A program made the translations under genes and the position numbers. This document shows, one piece after another, positions 33,596 to 47,388 of a DNA stretch of 64,000 nucleotides. This DNA is from Psychroserpens mesophilus (lineage in GTDB: Bacteria; Bacteroidota; Bacteroidia; Flavobacteriales; Flavobacteriaceae). Where the stretch lies: NCBI RefSeq assembly GCF_000826645.1, contig NZ_JXJP01000013.1, forward strand, positions 1 through 64,000. Direction: 5' to 3'. The notes below the pieces were generated by a model, which worked only from the letters and a program-made list of their open reading frames with translations, did no database searches and was not told the origin of the DNA. Numbering within the stretch: position 1 is the first letter of the stretch; every line of letters begins with the position of its first letter.

Positions 33596-35356
33596 ATGAT
33601 AAGAAAAATACTATTTGCTTTTTTATTACTACTATTAGCTATAGTACTTTACTCTAATCCGAATTTTAAAACAATTGCAGCAGGAATTGCAATTTTACTT
33701 TTTGGGATGATCATGCTAGAGGATGGGTTTAAAGTTTTCACTAAAGGCCCCTTACAAAATGTATTAAAAAAAGCAACAGACAAATTATATAAAAGCATCA
33801 CTGCTGGTGCTGTAGTAACAGCCTTAATTCAATCAAGCTCCTTAGTAACCGTTATTACAATTTCATTTATTAGTGCAGGACTTATTAGTTTATCTGGAGG
33901 CATCGGTCTTATTTTCGGGGCAAATATAGGAACGACAGCAACAGCATGGTTAGTTGCTGCATTTGGTTTGAAAATTAATATTTCGGCATTAGCAATGCCT
34001 TTATTGGTGTTTGGGGTTATTTTTTCTGTTCAAAAAAAGACCTCATTACAAGGCTTAGGCAAGATTTTAGCAGGATTGGGATTCTTCTTTTTGGGTATTC
34101 ATTTCATGAAAGAAGGCTTTGATGTCTTTAAAGATTACATCGATTTAACGCAATATGCTATTTCAGGATTTAAAGGCGTAATTATTTATGCCTTGTTGGG
34201 AATCATTATTACAACAGTATTACAATCAAGTAGCGCCACATTGGCTTTAATCTTAACGGCATTAGCAGCTGGACAAATTGAATATGAAAATGCACTGGCA
34301 TTAGCAATTGGAGCCAACATAGGCACAACTATTACAGCAGTTTTAGGATCTATAGGTTCTAATATAGCCGGAAAACGATTGGCTGGTGCACATTTCATTT
34401 TTAATTTGGCGACAGGAATTGTGGCCTTAATTTTAATATACCCATTAGCACAATTGGTTAATAAGCTGTCTGAGTTCGCAAACATAGGCGTTACAGATTA
34501 TACCTTAAAATTGGCACTGTTTCATACCATATTTAATGTCATTGGAGTTATTATTATGATTCCACTTATTAAAGCTTTAGAACGAATTTTATTAAAATTC
34601 TTCAAAGACAACGAACACAAAGATATTGATGAACCAAAATTTCTAAATGAGGCAGTTTTAAAATTCCCAGGTACTGTTATTTCTGCACTGATTAATGAAT
34701 CCAAATATTTATATAAAAATGCCGTTTTTGAAATCGTTGCACATGCGTTAAATATTCATAGAGACGATATAATATCTGATGAAAAAATAAAAAACATTGT
34801 CAAAAAGTCCACAAAAAACTTACAAACTGACGTAGATAAACTTTACTACAAAAAGGTAAAAACTATTTATGGTGAAATCATTAGATACGCCATAACTGCC
34901 CAAAATGATTTAACACTAAATAAAAAGGAAAATATAGCTATAAGTGATATTAAAATCGCTAATCGTAAAATGGTTGAGATTATTAAAGATGCTGGAGAAC
35001 TTAATAAAAACATTAATTTGTCTTTAGATTTAGATAATCCGTATATGTTGAAAGAGTACGATGGTTTCAGAAAAAAAATCATTAAAGTGTTGCGAATTAT
35101 CTATCTGTTTAGAAAAGCTGAGGATACTGAAGTCTACGCAAAAAAATTGTTTAACTTAAAAAAGGAAGCCAAAGAGAACATTAGAAAAAGCAATAAATCT
35201 ATAGACAAATTAATCAGAGAAAATTTAATTTCGGCTGAAATGGCTTCTTCGCTATTTAATGATTACACCAACGTTAACGATATGAATAAAAAATTGATTG
35301 AAGTAGCCGAATTATTATATGGTAGAAAAGATAGTTTGCTCGACAATGGTTATTGA
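33596..35356 (+). CDS. Na/Pi cotransporter family protein with PhoU-like domain
   Basis: 586 aa. An N-terminal helix, then two inverted Na/Pi-cotransport repeats with the paired signatures ALIQSSSLVTVITIS (about 79-93) and TVLQSSSATLALILT (about 207-221), each within hydrophobic helices up to about residue 330. The C-terminal 250 residues are charged and helical and resemble PhoU, as in bacterial YjbB/NptA-like transporters. It imports or exports phosphate with sodium; direction cannot be told. Divergent from the lipoprotein gene, and near two other phosphate genes. Confidence 0.9.
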   Translation: MIRKILFAFLLLLLAIVLYSNPNFKTIAAGIAILLFGMIMLEDGFKVFTKGPLQNVLKKATDKLYKSITAGAVVTALIQSSSLVTVITISFISAGLISLSGGIGLIFGANIGTTATAWLVAAFGLKINISALAMPLLVFGVIFSVQKKTSLQGLGKILAGLGFFFLGIHFMKEGFDVFKDYIDLTQYAISGFKGVIIYALLGIIITTVLQSSSATLALILTALAAGQIEYENALALAIGANIGTTITAVLGSIGSNIAGKRLAGAHFIFNLATGIVALILIYPLAQLVNKLSEFANIGVTDYTLKLALFHTIFNVIGVIIMIPLIKALERILLKFFKDNEHKDIDEPKFLNEAVLKFPGTVISALINESKYLYKNAVFEIVAHALNIHRDDIISDEKIKNIVKKSTKNLQTDVDKLYYKKVKTIYGEIIRYAITAQNDLTLNKKENIAISDIKIANRKMVEIIKDAGELNKNINLSLDLDNPYMLKEYDGFRKKIIKVLRIIYLFRKAEDTEVYAKKLFNLKKEAKENIRKSNKSIDKLIRENLISAEMASSLFNDYTNVNDMNKKLIEVAELLYGRKDSLLDNGY

Positions 35357-37380: not shown

Positions 37381-39693
37381 TTACTCTTCTTGGTCAGATG
37401 ATTCTCCTTTTTCAGTTATTTCATCAACAACAGTTATTTTTGCTGGTTCGACAGAACTATCAAAAGAATTATGATATTCATCCAATAAATTCATTGTCGC
37501 ATTAAGCAAATCTTTTGTTTCAAGAAGTAAACCAAAATAAAGGGTTGTATTTTTAGGACTTGACTCTTCAGTTCTTGTGCGTTGTACCTGCTTGTGTATT
37601 TTTTCCTTAACCAAATCGTATACTTCTTTCTTCTCACTTAGAATATTTCCTATTTGTTCAAAAGATTCCGATTTAAAAGCTTTTTCGGTATCACTAAATA
37701 ATATCTCAAGTTTATCATCTAATTCTTTTAATTCTTTTATTTGACTAAACTTAAGCTTCTTATGGTTATTATTAATATGCTTATAACTTACTTTAGAAAT
37801 ATATTCGAGTGATTGAGACATATCTTGCAAATGACCTAGCACATTAATATAAAAATTACTGGCCTCTAAACTAGATTCATCCAAATTCTTTATAAAGTAA
37901 AAAATATTGTCTCTTAAGTCATCTACCTCAGCTGTTAGTTTTACAACTTGCTTTTTACTCTTTTTAAGAATTGTTAAATCTTGTTTTGCTAATCCCACTA
38001 CAGAATTTGAATAAATTCTATTAGTTCTTTTAACAACATTAGCAATATTTTTAGCACTTTCTTGAATAACACCTTGAAGTGAACTACTTTCTGCTTTTTT
38101 AAGGCTATCCTCGTCAATAACTTTAGAGGATTTTCTTTTGTGAGACACATAATTTCTGTATAACAAAAGAACGGTAAGTAATAGTAAAATTGGGATGATC
38201 ACACTTGGATTCCAATTGATTAAAAACACTACAATACCAGCAGCAATAAATGCACCTATTGCAGTACCAAACCATCCGCCAATAACATTTAAAACACCCG
38301 CAACACGATAAACAGCACTCTCTCTTCCCCAAGCACGATCTGCAAGTGACGTACCCATGGCCACCATGAATGTGACATACGTTGTTGATAACGGTAATTT
38401 CATAGATGTTGCTATAGCAATTAACACACCAGCAACCATTAAATTAACTGAAGCACGAATCATATCGAATGCAGGAGCATCAATACTTTGATCTTTAGTT
38501 AATGCAATTTGATTTGGCTTTTCAAAACTCTTTCCTATTTTTTCTTGAATTGAATTCGGTATAACGATACCAAAATAGTTTGATAATTGAGTTGTTCCTT
38601 TAACAATTGATCTCGACAGGCGATTAGGTTCAAACTTTTCATGAGTTTCGCCTTGACGTGAAAGGCTTATTTCTGTTTCTGCTACCGTTTTAGCCTTTTT
38701 TGAAAACCACAATGTCAGAACCATAATAGCTCCTGAAATAAAAAGCAATAGAGGTTCGGCAGGGACTTTTTTCTCTAAAACCGCCATAGACATGGTAACG
38801 TCCATGCCTCCTGCTATCCATGCCTCGTATGAATGATAAGCTGCCATTGGGACACCTATAAAATTCACCAAATCATTTCCAGAAAACGCCAATGCCAATC
38901 CAAAAGTTCCCACAGCAATAACCACCAATAAAACTGTACGTTTAGTCAGCATTTCAAATAAGAATGAAAACAAAGTCCAGAAGATAAAACTTCCAACAAT
39001 AATATAAAATTCGTTGCCTTCTACTAAACTTTTTAATTCACTATAATAAGGTGTTCCCTTTAATCCTTTAAGGAAAATGAAATAGGTAATTGCTGTTAAA
39101 GCTAATCCACCGAAAACTATACCAAAATGCTTTATTTTTTTCTCATAATTAAACGTAAATATAAGTCTAGAAACCCATTGTACAAGGGCTCCAACAGAAA
39201 AAGCAATGACCACTGAAAGCAGAATTCCCGAGATAATTTCAATGGCTTTATCGGTATTGATATATGTGGCTAGATCTGCTAATGTTTCAGATTCAGAATT
39301 ACTAATTTTAATTAACGACATTACTACAGCTGCTCCAAGTAAATTGAAAACAATTGAAACGGTCGTTGATGTTGGTAAGCCTAAAGTATTGAAAAAGTCT
39401 AGTAACAAGATATCGGTAATCATCACCGCCATAAAAATGAGCATGATTTCACCAAATTCAAATTGGGCTGGCACAAAAATGCCTTTTCTCGCAACTTCCA
39501 TCATTCCACTAGAAAATACGGCTCCAATAAATATTCCCAAACTAGCAACAATCATAATGGTGCGCAGGGAAATGGCTTTAGAACCAATGGCTGAGTTTAA
39601 GAAATTAATCGCATCATTACTTACGCCAACAACGATGTCAGCAACTGCTAAAACTGTGATAGCAATTAACATTAACAAGTAAATATTATCCAT
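37381..39693 (-). CDS. pit: PiT-family inorganic phosphate transporter with PhoU-like C-terminal domain
   Basis: 770 aa, much longer than E. coli PitA. The PiT signatures are present twice: GVSNDAINFLNSAIGSKAIS near residue 23 and STTYVTFMVAMGTSLADRAWG near 435. About twelve helices extend to about residue 515. The last 240 residues are soluble, helical and acidic, resembling the PhoU/DUF47 proteins that are separate genes in other bacteria. A fusion of transporter and regulator is therefore likely. Its upstream region has two kinds of direct repeat, described separately. Confidence 0.93.
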   Translation of the reverse strand: MDNIYLLMLIAITVLAVADIVVGVSNDAINFLNSAIGSKAISLRTIMIVASLGIFIGAVFSSGMMEVARKGIFVPAQFEFGEIMLIFMAVMITDILLLDFFNTLGLPTSTTVSIVFNLLGAAVVMSLIKISNSESETLADLATYINTDKAIEIISGILLSVVIAFSVGALVQWVSRLIFTFNYEKKIKHFGIVFGGLALTAITYFIFLKGLKGTPYYSELKSLVEGNEFYIIVGSFIFWTLFSFLFEMLTKRTVLLVVIAVGTFGLALAFSGNDLVNFIGVPMAAYHSYEAWIAGGMDVTMSMAVLEKKVPAEPLLLFISGAIMVLTLWFSKKAKTVAETEISLSRQGETHEKFEPNRLSRSIVKGTTQLSNYFGIVIPNSIQEKIGKSFEKPNQIALTKDQSIDAPAFDMIRASVNLMVAGVLIAIATSMKLPLSTTYVTFMVAMGTSLADRAWGRESAVYRVAGVLNVIGGWFGTAIGAFIAAGIVVFLINWNPSVIIPILLLLTVLLLYRNYVSHKRKSSKVIDEDSLKKAESSSLQGVIQESAKNIANVVKRTNRIYSNSVVGLAKQDLTILKKSKKQVVKLTAEVDDLRDNIFYFIKNLDESSLEASNFYINVLGHLQDMSQSLEYISKVSYKHINNNHKKLKFSQIKELKELDDKLEILFSDTEKAFKSESFEQIGNILSEKKEVYDLVKEKIHKQVQRTRTEESSPKNTTLYFGLLLETKDLLNATMNLLDEYHNSFDSSVEPAKITVVDEITEKGESSDQEE

Positions 39694-39702
39694 GATTTTT
39701 AA

Positions 39703-39744
39703 TTAAAATAAGTTTACAAATTTACTTAAAATAAGTTTGCAAAT
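39703..39744 (-). repeat. 23-bp-spaced direct repeat in the pit promoter
   Basis: TTAAAATAAGTTTACAAAT (39703-39721) and TTAAAATAAGTTTGCAAAT (39726-39744) differ at one position and are offset by 23 bp, about two helical turns. On the minus strand each carries a TTTG, and the first gives TAAATTTG (39717-39724), a perfect -7 box. The repeat may be an operator or a duplicated promoter. Confidence 0.6.
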
Positions 39745-39768
39745 ATCTTTAGTTCATTTAAGTTTAAA

Positions 39769-39786
39769 GTTATCTAATTGTTATCT
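39769..39786 (-). promoter_or_regulatory. Pho-box-like 11-bp direct repeat upstream of pit
   Basis: On the minus strand AGATAAC, four bases, AGATAAC: a perfect 7-bp repeat at an 11-bp period, the geometry of PhoB/PhoP-type operators. It lies 22 bases before GATATTTG (39740-39747), a near -7 box, in the position of an activator site. Confidence 0.4.
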
Positions 39787-39795
39787 TTTAACACG

Positions 39796-41001
39796 TTAAA
39801 AGTGAATATCAAAACCAAGTCTAAAAGTCATGTTATCCTCGTTACCATTTATGGTTGTATAACTAATATCCGACTGTACTTTTAGTTTATGGCCGACAAC
39901 AAATTTATTAACTCCTAAGGTATACTGTTTCCTTGGAAGCGTTTCTGTAATGCGCTCAAAACTAACGGTTGTAAATCGAGCTGCTATTTCGTAATTACTT
40001 TTAAATAAATATCCAGCCTGTACATTTAAAGCATTTCCTGTTAAAACAACATCACCTGTGGGAGTAACACCATCCAACTCTGTTGCGATTTCATTGTCAG
40101 CTGTACGTTTAGCATACTCACCCATAAATGAAAATCCTTTGTATTTAAACATTGCATCAGCAAAAATAGTAGTTTGATCTGTTTCATAAAGAGAACCATC
40201 AGATCTCAACATATAATCTCCTGCAAATCCTCTCTCTCGAACAGCATCTTGATTATAATTATAGGTGATGCCTAACATTAATTTTGGTTTTTGCTCACGC
40301 TTTAAATCAGATTGACTGTAATCACCTTTAGATTTAAATGTTCCAAAAGGCAAAAATTCTAATCGAGCTGTATATTGCAAACCTCCTTCATTTCCTTCAG
40401 AAACATTTCGCCCTTCACCTTGTGAAATTGATAATTTTTCTCGCATTAAAAAATCTACTCCTAACTTGGTCTTATGACGTAATTGAATTCCTAAATCACG
40501 ATCAATATTAAACCTACTGTTCAATAAAGAGCGATCAATTAACTGAAGGTTTGCAGAAGAAACCACACGTTCAACATTTCCTGGTAATTTTGTTTGACCA
40601 GCCCAAAGTTCCCAGTTACCAGCAAAATTCCACATGATTACTGCATCGAGTATGTAACGTGGTGTATTTCTATTATATGCATTAGCTCCAGAAATATCTC
40701 GATTAGATAATCCAAGTTCAATCTTATATTTAAGTTTAGTACTATAAGCAAAACCATCAAACTTTAATCGGGCTCGTCTTACAATAAAATTATGTTCAGG
40801 ACTACCGTATTGATCACCATCATGATCCCATGATGAGATGGAACGCACTTGGAAACGAGGTGCAAATTTTACACTGAAAGAACTGTCTTTTGCAACGAAG
40901 TTTATCATTCCCTTGCCAAAGGAAGTGTCACTAATTTCTTGAGCGTTGATCGATGAGCATACACAAAGCACAAAAGTGATTAGAGTAATTTTAAGTTTCA
41001 T
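39796..41001 (-). CDS. Porin of the phosphate-selective O/P (OprO/OprP) family
   Basis: 401 aa. Signal peptide (KITLITFVLCVCSSINAQ) and an outer-membrane barrel. The opening FSVKFAPRFQVRS followed by FIVRRARLKFDGFAYSTKLKYKIELGLSN, WAGQTKLPGNVERVVSSANLQLIDRS and the ending TFRLGFDIHF are the family pattern. The start is the ATG at 41001; a TTG extension (41037) would spoil the signal peptide. It sits head-to-tail before pit. Family members carry phosphate or polyphosphate in Pseudomonas; the specificity here is inferred from the neighbours. Confidence 0.88.
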   Translation of the reverse strand: MKLKITLITFVLCVCSSINAQEISDTSFGKGMINFVAKDSSFSVKFAPRFQVRSISSWDHDGDQYGSPEHNFIVRRARLKFDGFAYSTKLKYKIELGLSNRDISGANAYNRNTPRYILDAVIMWNFAGNWELWAGQTKLPGNVERVVSSANLQLIDRSLLNSRFNIDRDLGIQLRHKTKLGVDFLMREKLSISQGEGRNVSEGNEGGLQYTARLEFLPFGTFKSKGDYSQSDLKREQKPKLMLGITYNYNQDAVRERGFAGDYMLRSDGSLYETDQTTIFADAMFKYKGFSFMGEYAKRTADNEIATELDGVTPTGDVVLTGNALNVQAGYLFKSNYEIAARFTTVSFERITETLPRKQYTLGVNKFVVGHKLKVQSDISYTTINGNEDNMTFRLGFDIHF

Positions 41002-41082
41002 TATAAGTAATAGTTTTTGTCGTGCACAAATAACCAACTTTAATGTTAACTAATCGTTTCCTAATTATTAAATTTTTAAAAC

Positions 41083-41109
41083 AAAAAAACTGCCTTGGCC
41101 AAAGGCAGT
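41083..41109 (-). terminator. Intrinsic terminator upstream of the porin gene
   Basis: Minus strand ACTGCCTT, loop TGGCC, AAGGCAGT (41089-41096 with 41102-41109), followed by seven T (plus-strand A 41083-41089). Confidence 0.85.
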
Positions 41110-41178
41110 CATTAGAATTCATGATAATTAGTCGACAAAAACTAATAGATTATACGAAACTAATATGTCTCATGAGAC
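41083..41178 (-). ncRNA. Candidate three-hairpin small RNA or attenuated leader of the porin gene
   Basis: Reading the minus strand from about 41178: hairpin TGTCT-CATG-AGACA (41166-41179), hairpin ATTAGT / ACTAAT (41127-41146), then an intrinsic terminator (41083-41109). A perfect -7 box TACATTTG (41184-41191) precedes it. The predicted RNA is about 95 nt with no ORF. It stops 82 bases before the porin ATG on the same strand, so it is either an independent sRNA or an attenuator in the porin leader. Confidence 0.5.
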
Positions 41179-41183
41179 AAGAA

Positions 41184-41191
41184 CAAATGTA
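41184..41191 (-). promoter_or_regulatory. -7 element of the candidate RNA
   Basis: Minus-strand TACATTTG, a full consensus match. At the -33 position only ACTG is found. Confidence 0.5.
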
Positions 41192-41292
41192 AATGAGATG
41201 TTTAATTACAGTGTCATCTTAGTATTAACTAATTATTAAACTTTAACTTTATTGTATAAATTTTCAAACAATTGATTTACAGTGTTTTACTG

Positions 41293-41314
41293 GTTTAATG
41301 TAAAATTAATGTTA
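41293..41314. promoter_or_regulatory. Pho-box-like 11-bp direct repeat before the MORN-like gene
   Basis: GTTTAATGTAA followed directly by AATTAATGTTA: TTAATGT is repeated exactly at an 11-bp period (41295-41301, 41306-41312). It ends nine bases before the -33 TTG of the MORN-like gene. On the minus strand it reads GTAACATTAAT-TTTACATTAAA, sharing the TAAC core with the repeats at pit and the TonB receptor. Confidence 0.4.
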
Positions 41315-41322
41315 CCAAATTG

Positions 41323-41353
41323 TTGCTTAAATATTATCTAATCTTTATATTTG
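41323..41353 (+). promoter_or_regulatory. Promoter of the MORN-like gene
   Basis: TTG (41323-41325), 20 bases, TATATTTG (41346-41353). Good match to the Bacteroidota consensus; start expected near 41360, leader about 23 nt. Confidence 0.7.
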
Positions 41354-41382
41354 AGTATTAAATAATTTTTAAACCCATAATT

Positions 41383-41742
41383 ATGAACAAAAGAGTATTG
41401 CTTGTATTCGTTTTATTAATCAGTATGGTTTCTTTTGCTCAGCAAGAGAGAAAATTAGAACTTAACAAAAACACCAATTTAATTGATGTAACTTATTATC
41501 ATGACAATGGATTGGTAAGCCAGACAGGAGCTTACACTTTAGATGGTAAATTACATGGTGAGTGGTTGAGTTTCGATACTGAAGGTAAAAAGAGTATTTC
41601 AGCGAATTATGATAATGGGAAAAAAGTCGGCAAGTGGTTTTATTGGAATGATACCACACTAAAAGAAGTAGATTATACAAATAATGCTGTAACAAGTGTT
41701 ACCGAATGGGACAACAAAACATCTGTTGCCATTCGAAATTAA
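41383..41742 (+). CDS. Secreted MORN-repeat-like protein (YwqK type)
   Basis: 119 aa. Signal peptide (LLVFVLLISMVSFAQ), then two or three MORN_2-like units: YYHDNGLVSQTGAYTLDGKLHGEWLSFD, TEGKKSISANYDNGKKVGKWFYWND. Such proteins are often labelled YwqK-family antitoxin by similarity, but no toxin gene is adjacent. Likely a small periplasmic or surface protein. Its promoter follows a Pho-box-like repeat and its 3' end is a perfect palindromic terminator. Confidence 0.78.
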   Translation: MNKRVLLVFVLLISMVSFAQQERKLELNKNTNLIDVTYYHDNGLVSQTGAYTLDGKLHGEWLSFDTEGKKSISANYDNGKKVGKWFYWNDTTLKEVDYTNNAVTSVTEWDNKTSVAIRN

Positions 41743-41750
41743 ACATTAAA

Positions 41751-41788
41751 TTACATATAAAAAAAGCATATGCTTTTTTTATATGTAA
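41751..41788. terminator. Bidirectional terminator, perfect 38-bp palindrome
   Basis: TTACATATAAAAAAAGCAT (41751-41769) is followed at once by its exact reverse complement (41770-41788). The A and T runs inside the arms supply a U-tract in both directions. It separates two convergent genes. Confidence 0.8.
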
Positions 41789-41806
41789 AATTAAAACTAA
41801 TTAACC

Positions 41807-43000
41807 TTAGTTATTATTTGTCCAACCAGCTCCCCAAGTTGCAAAGTTAGTTCCTGTAGCATTTGCTGCACTACCAAGAATAACATCAGCCTCAGTAACT
41901 GCATTTTCTAAATCATTTCCAGTATATGGAGTTCCTACTGATGCTGTGAAAGAAATATCAGTAAAAGACAAGTCTCCACTAACTACACCAGCACTTGTTG
42001 CACTTCCAGGCTCGTCATCTTCAATAACAATGCCTCTACCAAAGTTATCTACAGTTACATTTGAAAATATTCCTCTTGAACCAGCTCTCATTCTGAAAGC
42101 ACGACCAGAGTCACCATCACCAATAACAGTTACATTAGTTACCGTTGGTCGTGAGAAATAGCCAGCTTCATTAGAAAAATCAGTATTAAAACCGTCACAC
42201 TCAAAACCACTATCGTGATCTGTACCAGCGTTTTGAACAATATACACATCTGTCAAAGTCCCTGTAAACCCTTCTGTCCAGTCAATTGAATCATCTTCAG
42301 CATCAGTAACCACTATATGACTAGCGTTAACCGTTCCTCCAAAAAATTCAAAACCATCATCTGATCCTTTATAAACTTGTACATAATCGATTTCAGTTCC
42401 GTTTCCAACAGCGTACAGAGACACTCCATTTAATTCTGCGTTTCCATCAATCGCTCCACCAGCATATTCAACACGTACATATTTTAATGTCCCTGAATCA
42501 TCATTTGGATTATTTCCTCCGTAAGACAAACCTCCTACTTCAGTAGTAGCTGTATCTGTAGATCCATCTGCAGTAGAGTTAATTGGTGCATTACCACAAA
42601 TCACAATGCCTCCCCAATCTCCAGATCCAGGATTACCTGCATTAGAAGTAAATACAATTGGGTTTGAAGCTGTTCCTACTGCTTCAATTTTTGATCCAGG
42701 TAAAATTGCGATATAAGCATTAACACCTACAGGCTCAACATTAATAGTCGTTCCTGCTGGTATATTTAGTGTTGCACCAGATGTTATTAATAATGGACCA
42801 GAGATGATATACTCTTCACTGGCAATTAGGTTTAAATCAGAAGTATAAACACCCGCTAATGAGATAGCTCCTGGATTACTTGTGCTTCCGCCATTGTTAG
42901 TTATACTATTATCATTGATAATAATATCTGATGTATCATCGCTTTCGCAACCCATGAAGATTAAAGCAAAAGCTAGTAAATAAAATAAATTGGTTTTCAT
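41807..43000 (-). CDS. Beta-helix lipoprotein paired with a TonB-dependent receptor
   Basis: 397 aa. Lipobox LIFMGC (Cys18), an Asn/Thr/Ser-rich linker, then a domain of short beta-strands with many Gly, Asn and Asp (GTTINV, IVFTSNAGNPGSGDWGGIVICG, YVRVEYAGGAIDG, FEFFGGTVNASHIVVTDAEDDSID), typical of a right-handed parallel beta-helix. The DWGGI and FEFFGGTV motifs are shared with a Bacteroidota group often mislabelled as multidrug transporter. Encoded 42 bases after the receptor gene, so probably its surface partner. No catalytic residues are evident. Confidence 0.78.
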   Translation of the reverse strand: MKTNLFYLLAFALIFMGCESDDTSDIIINDNSITNNGGSTSNPGAISLAGVYTSDLNLIASEEYIISGPLLITSGATLNIPAGTTINVEPVGVNAYIAILPGSKIEAVGTASNPIVFTSNAGNPGSGDWGGIVICGNAPINSTADGSTDTATTEVGGLSYGGNNPNDDSGTLKYVRVEYAGGAIDGNAELNGVSLYAVGNGTEIDYVQVYKGSDDGFEFFGGTVNASHIVVTDAEDDSIDWTEGFTGTLTDVYIVQNAGTDHDSGFECDGFNTDFSNEAGYFSRPTVTNVTVIGDGDSGRAFRMRAGSRGIFSNVTVDNFGRGIVIEDDEPGSATSAGVVSGDLSFTDISFTASVGTPYTGNDLENAVTEADVILGSAANATGTNFATWGAGWTNNN

Positions 43001-43042
43001 TGTTTTAAAGTTTAAGTATTAAGTTCAATAATTATATATGTA

Positions 43043-45862
43043 TTAAAATTTATATTTAAGTGACATTCCTAAGTTGACACCCATGTTGTATTCGCTAATC
43101 GTGATATCTCCACTTCCTGTTCCTTCTCTTACTAAAGAAACATCTGGATCTAATAAATTTCTTGCAGAAATACTTAGGTCTAAGTTTTCAGTAATCGGAC
43201 TTTTAAATACGAAGTCTAATGTTGGGACCGATTTTTCAACAATGTTTCCTAAGCTACCTGATCCTAGTGAATAAATCCTATCAGAAAAATAAGACGCGAC
43301 TAAAGTTGCCGTAGGTTTAAAGTTTTTAATTGTTGGACTGTATGACAAATCTGTATTGAACACCCATTTTGAAGCGCCTTCTAATTCCTCTGTACTTCTA
43401 TTGAATGCTGTTCCGAACGTTCCTGAGATATCCTTCAAATCTTGCTCAGTGAATGTATATGATCCATTAAATCCAAAAGCTAATACTGGATCTTCATTTT
43501 CATTTATCGTTAAATTTTTACGTAATTCAAGTTCTAATCCGACTACATCAGCAGACTCTCCCGTTCTGAAATAACGCTGAGTTCCTGTAGCATCAGCAGC
43601 TACAACTCTGTTAACAGGATCATTAATTTGTTTTGCAAATGCTCCTAAGGATACTATTTCTCCAGTACTCATAAACCATTCGTATTTTAAATCGAAATTG
43701 TAGATTTCCGAATATGTAGGTCCGTTACCATCAACACCTCCTAATAAATCTGGGTTACCACCATATCTAACCGTTACATCTTCATAAACAAAAGGTGCTA
43801 CTTCTTTAAATTCAGGTAATGATGCTGTTTTACTGAAAGCAAATCTCAAGTTTGAATCTTCAGTTAAGGCGTATTTAATATTTAAACTTGGTAAGATTAA
43901 ATTTTCATAAACACTTCTGAAACCTGGATCATCTTGTCTGATGTTAATTACATCATACGTGATATCTTGTTGAAATGATTCTAATCGAATACCTGGAACA
44001 AATAACCATTTATCACCAACAGATAGTTCTGCATTGATATAACCTGCATGAATGTTTAGTTTTCCTTTATAGGTGTTTTCAGGCAAACCTGGTCTGTTCG
44101 TATTTCCAATATCATTGTTTATTGGATTCAATACAATCACATCATATAAACCAGAACCATCAGGAATATTAATATTGTTTACATTAAAAATGGTATTCAG
44201 GTTATTAACATCAAGAATAGGTGTTGCGTTTCTATCTACAATGTCATAACCATAACGAATACTATTAAAGCCTCTTTCTTTAGTTCTTCCATTATATCCA
44301 AAATTCAGTTTTACGTTTTCTGAAACGTTATATTCTAAATTAAGGAATGCATTATACTCATCGTCTTCAATACTCTGGAAAAAACGTTGATTATCAAAGG
44401 GAATATTGGTATAAAATACCGGATTTGTATTGGGATCTGTGTCTAAAGCAAATTGATAGTTTTCTAAGCTGATACGTTTTCTATCAGGTTCATTAGAAAA
44501 CACTTTGTTGTATCCAAATCCCCAATTTAGTTCAAACGTTTCGTCTACACTTTTGTGGTTTCCTAAAATTTGATTGACATGAACACGATCTTGATTAAAC
44601 TGAACGTTCATGGTGTAAAACCCAATATCGTTTGGATCTACACTTGCAATTCCATCTCTATTAAATCCTTGACCTTGTGTTCCGTAATATCCAACCTCAT
44701 CACCTGAACTGTTTATAAATAAAGAGTTAAAATTGATTTTGTTATAGTTATCTATTTTAAACGTTGTATTCAATAAAGCTGTTGTTGTGGTAGAATATTC
44801 ATATTCAGAAACATTTGGATAATCCACTTTGAGTACGTTAGTAAAATCACGTGCTACACCTTCTCTGTATTCAGAACCGTTTGAAAAACTAGCCGTAGCA
44901 AAAAAGCTTAATCGCGTATCTTCGTCAAAGTCGAAAGAATAACCTCCTTCAACTGCACCATTAAAATTTATCTGACTTTCGGATGCTTCAGGATCAACTC
45001 CATGAGACAGTACAATTGCAAAAGGATTATTATCATACCTATTATAGAATCCGAAATAACTGGTGCCTTCACTTCTAACAAAATCTTCTCCTATGGCATT
45101 AGAATTAACACCAGATCCTAAGGATAGATTAAAAAAACCTTTCCCTGTATATTCTTTTGAATTGATATTGACGTTTCCAGCAGCAAAATCACCATAAAAT
45201 GAAGGCGTATAGGCTTTACTTACTGAAATATTTTCAATAACATCTGTTGAAAATAAATCTAAATCAATATTCTTTTTATTGACATCTGTTGAAGGCAAAG
45301 ACAGGTTATTCATTGTTGTATTTTGATATCTGTCACCGAGACCTCTTACATATACATTACTAGAACCTCTTTGCTTAGAAATTCCCGATATTTTAGATAC
45401 AGCCTCACCTGCATCACCAACACCTTTTCTTGACAATTCTTGAGCTCCAATACTTTGTTTGATTTCTACCGCTTTCTTCTGGTCTAATAACAATGCTGCT
45501 TCACTTTCTTTTCTAGTTGTAGTCGTAATGATAACCTCATCTAAAGATGCAGCACTTGCTCCCATTGGCACATTAACCTCTGTAACTTTATTCGCAACAA
45601 CTTCAACTGTAATTTCCTGAGTTTCATAGCCAACAAAACTAAAAACCAAAATATAGGTTCCTGGTGATAAGTTGTCAAAACTATATAAACCATCAATATC
45701 AGATGTTGTTCCAGTAGTTGTTCCTTTAATTAGTACATTACCAAATGCTAAAGGTTCATTATTATATTCTTTATCAATTAATTTTCCAGCAATAGACCCC
45801 GTATTTTGAGTATATCCCAGTGATGTAAAAAACAATATGGTTAGTAGTACAAATGTTCTCAT
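43043..45862 (-). CDS. TonB-dependent receptor
   Basis: 939 aa outer-membrane receptor. Signal peptide (VLLTILFFTSLGYTQ), carboxypeptidase-regulatory-like domain (about 21-105, SIAGKLIDKEYNNEPLAFGNVLIKG), then a plug (about 115-235, with SIGAQELSRKGVGDAGEAVSKISGI and VYVRGLGDRYQNTTMNNLSLPSTD). The large barrel ends MGVNLGMSLKYKF, a terminal aromatic residue as needed for BAM. No SusD gene follows; instead a beta-helix lipoprotein does. The substrate is unknown; nearby phosphate genes and a Pho-box-like repeat at its promoter hint at a phosphorus-containing ligand. Confidence 0.93.
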   Translation of the reverse strand: MRTFVLLTILFFTSLGYTQNTGSIAGKLIDKEYNNEPLAFGNVLIKGTTTGTTSDIDGLYSFDNLSPGTYILVFSFVGYETQEITVEVVANKVTEVNVPMGASAASLDEVIITTTTRKESEAALLLDQKKAVEIKQSIGAQELSRKGVGDAGEAVSKISGISKQRGSSNVYVRGLGDRYQNTTMNNLSLPSTDVNKKNIDLDLFSTDVIENISVSKAYTPSFYGDFAAGNVNINSKEYTGKGFFNLSLGSGVNSNAIGEDFVRSEGTSYFGFYNRYDNNPFAIVLSHGVDPEASESQINFNGAVEGGYSFDFDEDTRLSFFATASFSNGSEYREGVARDFTNVLKVDYPNVSEYEYSTTTTALLNTTFKIDNYNKINFNSLFINSSGDEVGYYGTQGQGFNRDGIASVDPNDIGFYTMNVQFNQDRVHVNQILGNHKSVDETFELNWGFGYNKVFSNEPDRKRISLENYQFALDTDPNTNPVFYTNIPFDNQRFFQSIEDDEYNAFLNLEYNVSENVKLNFGYNGRTKERGFNSIRYGYDIVDRNATPILDVNNLNTIFNVNNINIPDGSGLYDVIVLNPINNDIGNTNRPGLPENTYKGKLNIHAGYINAELSVGDKWLFVPGIRLESFQQDITYDVINIRQDDPGFRSVYENLILPSLNIKYALTEDSNLRFAFSKTASLPEFKEVAPFVYEDVTVRYGGNPDLLGGVDGNGPTYSEIYNFDLKYEWFMSTGEIVSLGAFAKQINDPVNRVVAADATGTQRYFRTGESADVVGLELELRKNLTINENEDPVLAFGFNGSYTFTEQDLKDISGTFGTAFNRSTEELEGASKWVFNTDLSYSPTIKNFKPTATLVASYFSDRIYSLGSGSLGNIVEKSVPTLDFVFKSPITENLDLSISARNLLDPDVSLVREGTGSGDITISEYNMGVNLGMSLKYKF

Positions 45863-45884
45863 TATTCGTTTTAATTTGTTGGTG

Positions 45885-45932
45885 CAAAGAAACTGTCATT
45901 GTGTAAAGTCAAGGTTAATTAGAAGTTAAACC
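45885..45932 (-). promoter_or_regulatory. Promoter and Pho-box-like repeats of the TonB receptor gene
   Basis: Minus strand: TTG (45910-45912), 17 bases, TTTCTTTG (45885-45892), one base off the -7 consensus. Overlapping and upstream (45903-45932) lie TTTAAC, ATTAAC and CTTTAC at exact 11-bp intervals. The geometry resembles PhoP boxes (TTAACA-like units) of Bacillus. Confidence 0.4.
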
Positions 45933-46041
45933 TAAATGATAAAAAAGTTATGGCAACGTTATGAGATCTTTCTTTTTTTTATTCTAAGGAAACGATAATT
46001 TAACATTGAAGTGTTATCTTGCATAGTCTTAAAAATTTACT

Positions 46042-47388
46042 ATGAATTGGGAACAACTTTTATCTCTTAAACGCTTTGGTGACACACATAAAAGGTTACG
46101 AAAAGAGCAGGATGAAACGCGCTTGGGCTTTGAGGTTGATTACGACCGAATTATCTTTTCTTCAGAATTTAGAAGCCTTCAAGATAAAACGCAAGTCATC
46201 CCATTATCTGAAACCGATTTCGTTCACACACGATTAACACATAGTTTAGAAGTTAGTGTTGTAGGACGATCTCTTGGAAGAAAAGTTGGACAAAAGCTTC
46301 TGGAAAAACATCCACATCTTAAAGACTCTTTAGGTTATCGAGCAAACGATTTTGGAACTATTGTAGCTGCAGCATCGTTAGCTCACGATATTGGAAACCC
46401 TCCTTTTGGGCATAGTGGTGAAAAATCCATAGGCGAATTTTTTAAAACGGGTAAAGGCAAACGTTTCAGAAATCAGCTAACCGAAAAGCAATATCAAGAT
46501 CTTTGTGATTTTGAAGGCAACGCCAACGGATTTAAAATTTTAACCGAAAGCAGGCAAGGACGAGAGGGCGGATTGCGATTAAGCTACGCCACATTGGGAG
46601 CTTTTATGAAATACCCAAAAGAATCTCTCCCCAAAAAACCTACTTCGCACATTGCAGATAAAAAATATGGTTTTTTTCAAAGCGAAACCCTAGCTTTTTT
46701 AGATGTTGCTAAAGAACTTGGTTTAATTAAAAGAGGTGCCGAAAATGATATCAGTTTTTGCAGACATCCTCTGGCTTTTTTAGTAGAAGCTGCAGACGAT
46801 ATTTGTTACACGATTATCGATTTTGAAGATGGAATAAATCTTGGTTTAATTCAAGAAGAATATGCTCTTGAATATTTAATTAACCTCGTAAGGGCTACTA
46901 TAAACACCACAAAATACAACTCTTTAGCTACCACTCAAGACAGGGTAAGTTACTTAAGAGCACTCGCAATTAACACATTAATTAGTGAAGCTGTAGACAT
47001 ATTTATGGCGAATGAAGAAGATATTTTAAATGGAATATATTCTAAGGCACTCTTAGATCATAGCAAATATGAAGCACAAATTAAAGATATTATTAAACTG
47101 AGTGTAGAAAATATTTATCAATCTAAAGACGTTATTGATAAAGAAATTGCAGGTTTTAAAGTTATTAATGAGCTTTTAGACATCTTTACGACTGCTATTT
47201 CAAACAACTTTACTGGGTCGTCTTCTAGTTTTGATAAATTAATTTTGAAAGTTTTTCCTAAAAATATAGACTTAAGAAAAGATGATATGTACGACAATTT
47301 ATTGTCTGTATGCTTTTACATCTCTAAACTGTCTGATAGAAATGCCATATTAACGTTTAATAAATTAAAAGGAAACCATTATAATTAA
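46042..47388 (+). CDS. dgt: Deoxyguanosinetriphosphate triphosphohydrolase (dGTPase)
   Basis: 448 aa HD-domain enzyme splitting dGTP to deoxyguanosine and triphosphate. SSEFRSLQDKTQV precedes the metal site: His67 in RLTHSLEV and His115-Asp116 in AHDIGNPPFGHSGE, with a later VEAADDICYTIIDFEDG supplying the last Asp. Length agrees with type-1 dGTPases. It balances dNTP pools and in some bacteria limits phage replication. Followed by a T9SS-sorted protein gene 20 bases on. Confidence 0.94.
   Translation: MNWEQLLSLKRFGDTHKRLRKEQDETRLGFEVDYDRIIFSSEFRSLQDKTQVIPLSETDFVHTRLTHSLEVSVVGRSLGRKVGQKLLEKHPHLKDSLGYRANDFGTIVAAASLAHDIGNPPFGHSGEKSIGEFFKTGKGKRFRNQLTEKQYQDLCDFEGNANGFKILTESRQGREGGLRLSYATLGAFMKYPKESLPKKPTSHIADKKYGFFQSETLAFLDVAKELGLIKRGAENDISFCRHPLAFLVEAADDICYTIIDFEDGINLGLIQEEYALEYLINLVRATINTTKYNSLATTQDRVSYLRALAINTLISEAVDIFMANEEDILNGIYSKALLDHSKYEAQIKDIIKLSVENIYQSKDVIDKEIAGFKVINELLDIFTTAISNNFTGSSSSFDKLILKVFPKNIDLRKDDMYDNLLSVCFYISKLSDRNAILTFNKLKGNHYN

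Follow-up and report, generated by a model that had tools for sequence, protein, structure and literature searches.

The question raised by this locus is whether a short direct repeat in front of a phosphate transporter gene (pit) represents an operator for phosphate (Pi) starvation or a chance feature of AT-rich DNA. The minus strand of the window, i.e. the whole stretch of 64,000 nucleotides that was analysed, carries genes coding for a TonB-dependent receptor, a lipoprotein, an OprO/P-type porin, and Pit, with a divergent MORN-like gene between the lipoprotein and porin genes. The repeat and the minus-strand genes are the following:

39769-39786, minus strand: reported repeat AGATAACaattAGATAAC, whose units lie at -37 and -26 relative to the pit -7 box
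37381..39693, minus strand: pit, PHO4 family phosphate transporter of 770 amino acids (PF01384, E 1.7e-29)
39796..40998, minus strand: OprO/P-type porin (PF07396, E 4.9e-13)
41807..43000, minus strand: lipoprotein beside the receptor, related to the FI/FII/FIII-type lipoproteins beside phoB in Flavobacterium
43043..45862, minus strand: TonB-dependent receptor, assigned from its relatives and its best model (TIGR01782, below the cut-off of that model)

The repeat, AGATAAC-N4-AGATAAC, consists of two 11-bp units. The initial annotation had described it as an exact 7-bp repeat at an 11-bp period; this held, on the minus strand, and the exact copy was the only one in the window. With two mismatches allowed, shuffled sequences contained on average 0.92 matches to the bare repeat, so that the repeat alone is weak evidence. 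The looser pattern [AT]TAAC-N6-[AT]TAAC, which had been put forward as the signature of such sites, failed, as no enrichment was found: with one mismatch allowed, it occurred 43 times in the window versus 41 expected, and it was discarded as a detector for being at chance level. A three-unit pattern with one mismatch allowed was discarded too (17 matches versus 44 in the reversed control). Without mismatches, the three-unit pattern matched only once in the 3.68-Mb genome, at TTAAC-N6-TTAAC-N6-TTTAC (45903-45929, minus strand). The defining feature is a fixed distance to the -7 box. The repeat is likely a genuine and conserved operator, whose signal resides in that fixed register and not in the loose pattern; its binding by a regulator is inferred.

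Unit positions are given relative to the initial base of the -7 box, which ends in TTTG; a -7 consensus TAnnTTTG has been published for F. psychrophilum (PMC9723704). The promoters concerned, with their ranks on a matrix described below, are:

39738..39785, minus strand: pit promoter, units ATAACAATTAG and ATAACTTTAAA, degenerate third unit CTTAA, -7 box GATATTTG (39740-39747); rank 2 of 127,906, conserved
45883..45930, minus strand: TonB-receptor promoter, units TTAAC/TTAAC/TTTAC, -7 box TTTCTTTG; rank 1
41025..41072, minus strand: porin promoter, units TTAAT/GAAAC/TTAAC, -7 box GTTATTTG; rank 3
41184..41228, minus strand: promoter of a candidate small RNA, units TTAAT/ATGAC/ATTAA, -7 box TACATTTG; rank 17

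Alignments of eight Flavobacterium relatives, which stood in for F. johnsoniae itself, placed the TAAC-type units of the receptor and porin promoters at -37, -26, and -15, and those of the lipoprotein promoters at -48, -37, and -26. No good unit was present at -15 in front of pit. Family-wide, at least two of the three units occupied the Flavobacterium register in 63 of the 65 porin promoters and 53 of the 58 small-RNA promoters scored, promoters without a findable -7 box being omitted (two of 67 and 12 of 70, respectively). Other registers were represented by zero to two promoters, except for a 5-nt shift (25 small-RNA and 12 porin promoters), a deviation that, by inference, stems from the ATTA half of the unit. 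The 99.9th percentile of window scores was exceeded by 48/58 small-RNA and 62/65 porin promoters, and by 0.2% and 0.0%, respectively, of windows shifted by 1-10 nt. Of the properties expected of a PHO box, the presence of at least two direct units at an 11-bp period and a fixed position relative to the core promoter were both met; the presence of units at Pi-uptake genes was met for pit, the porin, and the TonB receptor, and not for phoB or two pstS genes.

Several claims of the initial annotation can be judged against this register. A -7 box had been placed just downstream of the repeat; the box fitting the pit repeat is GATATTTG, at a gap of 21 nt. The TAAC repeats claimed at the TonB receptor were confirmed, and form the strongest array of all. 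The single element in front of the porin, TAACATTAAAG, was confirmed as well, being the last unit of TTAAT/GAAAC/TTAAC. The repeat claimed at the MORN-like gene exists but lies on the minus strand, opposite to that gene, and its status as a target was not shown:

41300..41314, minus strand: TAAC/TTAC pair upstream of the MORN-like gene and opposite to it in direction, from intergenic comparison

An 11-bp-spaced TAAC/T[AT]AC pair was retrieved from 21/21 intergenic regions upstream of the MORN-like gene, the reported match in L224 and L225 being a different one, closer to the MORN start. As a target of the promoter register, the MORN-like gene was discarded (best rank 519 in the window), as was the Na/Pi cotransporter gene near the island (33596-35356, plus strand; best rank 508).

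The matrix was trained on 21 promoters (receptor, lipoprotein, and porin) from eight Flavobacterium genomes, none of them from the window. The TonB-receptor, pit, and porin promoters were its first, second, and third matches among all window positions, both strands included. In 40 resamplings of the window, a mean of 0.15 positions per strand reached the score of pit; the highest resampled score (16.6, once in 40 runs) exceeded that of pit (12.5) and remained below that of the receptor (20.9). The same promoters were the top three among 47 gene upstream regions, also when training was restricted to receptor promoters or to receptor and lipoprotein promoters. Upon training with lipoprotein promoters only, pit, the receptor, and the porin ranked 1, 2, and 4 of these 47, and upon training with porin promoters only, the receptor, the porin, and pit ranked 1, 4, and 7. 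None of 300 column-permuted matrices had the three promoters as its top three; 240 had none of them there, 56 had one, and four had two. When the matrix was applied to 21 additional Flavobacterium lipoprotein loci not used for training, the outcome was mixed: in eight of them, one of the three top-scoring matches lay 38-49 nt upstream of the lipoprotein (the highest-scoring one in four of these), and the other 13 lacked such a match. Concerning the lipoproteins and receptors themselves, the relatives of the window lipoprotein in Flavobacterium adjoin a receptor that diverges from phoB. In the same-genus loci L222-L226, L230-L233, L236, L237, and L239-L241, a second receptor, 28-30% identical, occupied the place of the receptor; in one of these loci, L240, the lipoprotein is preceded by a Pho-type promoter with a score of 23.1. 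Receptors of 28-33% identity were set aside, as no shared promoter was found for them and they are probably not orthologues.

The strict pattern TAAC-N7-TAAC-N25-TTTG preceded pit in 21/21 same-genus genomes (the own genome and 20/20 others) and in 17/19 genomes of other genera of the family (16/18 among the fetched genomes, plus L320), or 38/40 family genomes overall, own included. In the first survey, 26 loci were examined, and L242, one of the 22 same-genus genomes with pit, was dropped because of a contig end; for the other genera, 20 genomes were selected for retrieval among those listed with the small RNA, and 18 of them contained pit. The pattern also preceded pit in L243, of a second family. 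It was absent before pit in L381 (GATATTTA) and L386, both of other genera, and before four distant pit orthologues (L245, L247, L248, and L249). The pit site was kept in seven same-genus loci where no upstream porin was found, and same-genus pit genes scored 3.0 to 23.3 on the matrix. In the eight Flavobacterium relatives, no match to the window pit was found at E <= 1e-60, so that the pit site is not comparable there. In L389 and L390, pstS directly followed the porin, in the place where other genera have pit; no convincing promoter match was found for these pstS genes.

A first alternative explanation is that the repeat arose by chance in AT-rich DNA and lacks a function. The chance-level frequency of the loose pattern and the single match expected for the bare repeat with two mismatches speak for it. 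Against it stand the fixed spacing to the -7 box in nearly all family genomes examined, the ranks obtained with a matrix trained outside the genus, and the family-wide register test; chance is all but excluded. The preferred reading, of the repeat as operator of a Pi-starvation promoter under a PhoB-type regulator, is likely. Sequence, register, conservation, and gene neighbourhood are shown; the identity of the regulator, its binding, the direction of regulation, and induction at low Pi are inferred.

The strict pattern was not in general excess genome-wide. It matched 6 times in the own genome versus 0 in the control (two matches within this locus), 4 times in SLB02 versus 7 in the control, and 14 times in four closed same-genus genomes versus 12 in the reversed control. 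In the closed genomes, it recurred at pit (4/4) and at moxR (4/4), and it preceded moxR in the own genome and in SLB02 as well. The moxR sites were located at G000:C5:183832-183875 (minus strand), which is outside the window, and in L290, L291, L293, L297, and L258. Among 20 phoB loci, 19 could be scored, with 1.6 as the best score, and autoregulation of phoB through the same register was discarded. The enrichment at phosphate genes that had been proposed as a check did not extend to the phoB promoters and the two pstS genes, which were without a convincing match.

With respect to the regulator, the genome contains, elsewhere, one close PhoB with an adjacent kinase (G000:C1:160157); PhoB models fit this protein best, yet below their cut-offs. 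Upon Pi depletion of F. johnsoniae, 95 transcripts increase by more than 4 log2; the receptor Fjoh_0545 and the FII lipoprotein Fjoh_0546 change by +8.0 and +9.9 log2, whereas OprP (Fjoh_0542) is not induced (-1.3, not significant; PMC8115612). Of the three genes used for training, the receptor and the lipoprotein are counterparts of these Pi-induced genes; the porin (OprP) promoters of the Flavobacterium relatives carry units, although OprP is uninduced in F. johnsoniae. In Riemerella anatipestifer, PhoP binds the moxR promoter, the PhoP motif has TTTAACA and resembles that of ArcA, and expression of moxR falls upon phoP deletion (PMC9603813). In Bacteroides fragilis, the pstC promoter is bound by PhoB, and the published table apparently gives a value of -52 for a phosphate/sulphate permease in its phoB-mutant column (PMC3547664). 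Given the Pi induction of two training genes in F. johnsoniae and the TTTAACA motif bound by Riemerella PhoP, a regulator of the PhoB type is the most plausible interpretation, and a likely one; binding is inferred, a PhoP motif has been published for a relative only, and orthology to Riemerella PhoP is assumed. The shared Pho-type operator of a local phosphate regulon that the initial annotation had suggested is supported by the matrix, by the conservation before pit, and by the published induction and PhoP motif.

Alternatively, another regulator of the OmpR family, responding for instance to envelope or oxygen stress, may bind the units, the phosphate genes being only part of its targets. 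Arguments for this alternative are the occurrence of the pattern at moxR, the ArcA-like nature of the published PhoP motif (PMC9603813), the absence of the register from the scored phoB promoters, and the lack of Pi induction of F. johnsoniae OprP. However, three genes of phosphate uptake provide the top matches in the window, the training promoters came from the phoB neighbourhood with two of the genes Pi-induced, and moxR itself is a published PhoP target (PMC9603813). This alternative is considered unlikely, and a PhoB-type regulator is retained.

The operator shares head-to-tail 11-bp units at phosphate genes with the PHO boxes of Escherichia coli PhoB and Bacillus subtilis PhoP (PMC4415409), and the TTAAC core resembles the B. 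subtilis PHO box. It differs from the E. coli box in unit sequence (CTGTCAT in the latter; PMC4415409), and from both in its partner, a Bacteroidota -7 box TANNTTTG (PMC9723704), at a fixed register. Similarly, the PhoP motif of R. anatipestifer, Riemerella being a flavobacterium, has the TTTAACA core and moxR as a common target, but an 11-bp register to the -7 box is not described for it, the term 'direct repeat' is absent from the text, and no pit or porin sites are named in the relevant sections (PMC9603813). The Pi-starvation response of F. johnsoniae likewise involves a strongly induced TonB receptor and FII lipoprotein, which lie beside phoBR, whereas the window genes adjoin the porin and pit; 'Pho box' and 'motif' are absent from the main text of that study (PMC8115612).

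In the mechanism proposed, a PhoB-type response regulator would bind head-to-tail 11-bp units with a consensus close to TTAACNNNNNN. The units would occupy the region of a -33 element, from where the regulator would recruit RNA polymerase to the TANNTTTG-like -7 box, and they would be placed at -37, -26 and, if present, -15 from the first base of that box. The pit gene would use the first two units, and all three would serve the porin, the TonB-receptor operon and, probably, the candidate small RNA; the receptor operon, the porin, pit, and the candidate small RNA together would form a Pi-uptake island. PstS was not found in the own genome, and PstB was not found at E <= 1e-60 in 14/14 same-genus genomes, own included, making Pit plausible as the main Pi importer.

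A further component of the locus is a candidate small RNA facing the porin, with the following features:

41083..41183, minus strand: candidate small RNA of 101 nt, with two predicted stem-loops and a terminator (sequence, folding, and family search)
41133..41146, minus strand: AUUAGUUUUUGUCG, loop and stem strand complementary to the porin leader
41088..41110, minus strand: intrinsic terminator of the candidate small RNA, supported by compensatory changes
41011..41022, minus strand: porin leader segment CGACAAAAACTA, complementary to the small RNA (duplex tests)

Between the MORN-like gene and the porin, 14/14 same-genus loci with the porin, own included, contain a block that begins downstream of a -7 box and has a terminator at its end. 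In the seven same-genus loci without the porin, the conserved RNA core was missing, a weak 32-bit hit being left in L234. The predicted fold comprises a 5' stem-loop, a stem with a UUUUGUC loop, and the terminator. A covariance model retrieved the RNA from 146/397 Flavobacteriaceae genomes, in 107/237 genera, at E <= 0.01 per genome, a threshold at which about four chance hits are expected over 397 genomes. An Rfam search of 39600-46100 yielded no curated family that fits, the two sub-threshold hits lying elsewhere. Seventy loci out of these 146 genomes were examined, namely the best 30 (one of which is the window) and 40 chosen among lower scores. The RNA was followed by an OprO/P porin in 67/70, with the called open reading frame starting 51 to 171 nt downstream. 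In the three exceptions, it was followed by pit (L320), by an apparent porin remnant (L364), or by no porin that could be found, with pit further down (L344). L364 is a second small-RNA copy in genome G332, before a seemingly decayed porin.

The duplex between RNA and leader had a median energy of -26.1 kcal/mol, versus -11.6 kcal/mol for shuffles, and 62/67 RNA-leader pairs beat all 100 shuffles; L323, where the called start is early, failed. In 57 of the 62 loci measured, the end of the leader segment and the next ATG were 7 to 15 nt apart; the distance was shorter in four loci and 79 nt in one. The cores of the small RNA and of the leader were invariant or nearly so, and the invariant core in both partners therefore gives no test of pairing. 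At the flanks of the duplex, both-sided changes that keep the pairing occurred in single loci, e.g. L366 and L347. An alignment for covariation, which took in 57 of the 70 loci, displayed both-sided changes at 6/7 predicted pairs of the terminator stem and at 0/4 of the loop stem. The 5' stem-loop was not recovered in this 57-sequence consensus; it was recovered in 14 same-genus sequences, with both-sided changes at 2/6 pairs. The expectations for an antisense RNA are met on sequence evidence only, firstly regarding an own promoter and an intrinsic terminator, and secondly regarding complementarity to the translation start region of the porin.

An alternative for the small RNA is that the complementary segments form a hairpin in the leader of a read-through transcript, or serve as paired protein sites in the DNA. 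In its favour are the invariant core of both segments, which leaves pairing tested at few positions, the loop stem without both-sided changes in 57 sequences, and the absence of an observed transcript. Against it, a terminator with compensatory changes lies between the segments, the RNA and the porin each have their own -7 box and units, and the changes at the duplex flanks preserve pairing in a few loci. This alternative is not favoured. The conserved 101-nt candidate seems built to act on the adjacent porin; its transcription, control, and pairing are inferred, no transcript having been seen. A bolder reading, for which doubt slightly outweighs belief, is that this is a family-wide Flavobacteriaceae RNA, which would be induced by the PhoB-type regulator of the porin, pair through its UUUUUGUCG loop with the start of the porin mRNA, and block translation. 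This would constitute an incoherent feed-forward loop that decides whether uptake in Pi-starved cells proceeds via the porin and Pit or via the TonB receptor. For the porin, which has both a Pho-type promoter and a facing RNA, induction by low Pi should not be assumed, the uninduced OprP of F. johnsoniae serving as a warning.

MicF and similar enterobacterial RNAs target outer-membrane proteins. Like them, the candidate is short, ends in a terminator, and is complementary to a porin mRNA around its start, but it adjoins its target on the same strand, occurs in Bacteroidota, has a promoter in the Pho register, and lacks an Rfam match. With Rfp18 of F. psychrophilum, it has in common that it is a conserved flavobacterial small RNA (PMC9723704), whereas the reported targets of Rfp18 are metalloproteases and 'porin' is absent from the main text of that study (PMC9723704).

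In the open-access literature searched, neither such a promoter rule nor such an RNA was found, the nearest being the Riemerella PhoP motif (PMC9603813). Flavobacteria are important recyclers of phosphorus in sea and soil. The present analysis offers a searchable and mutable rule for their Pho promoters, in which TTAAC-type units of 11 bp occupy positions -37, -26, and -15 relative to the -7 box, and suggests that genomes without Pst may place Pit under Pho control. Few post-transcriptional regulators are known in Bacteroidota; the porin-linked RNA, if true, would be a widespread one.
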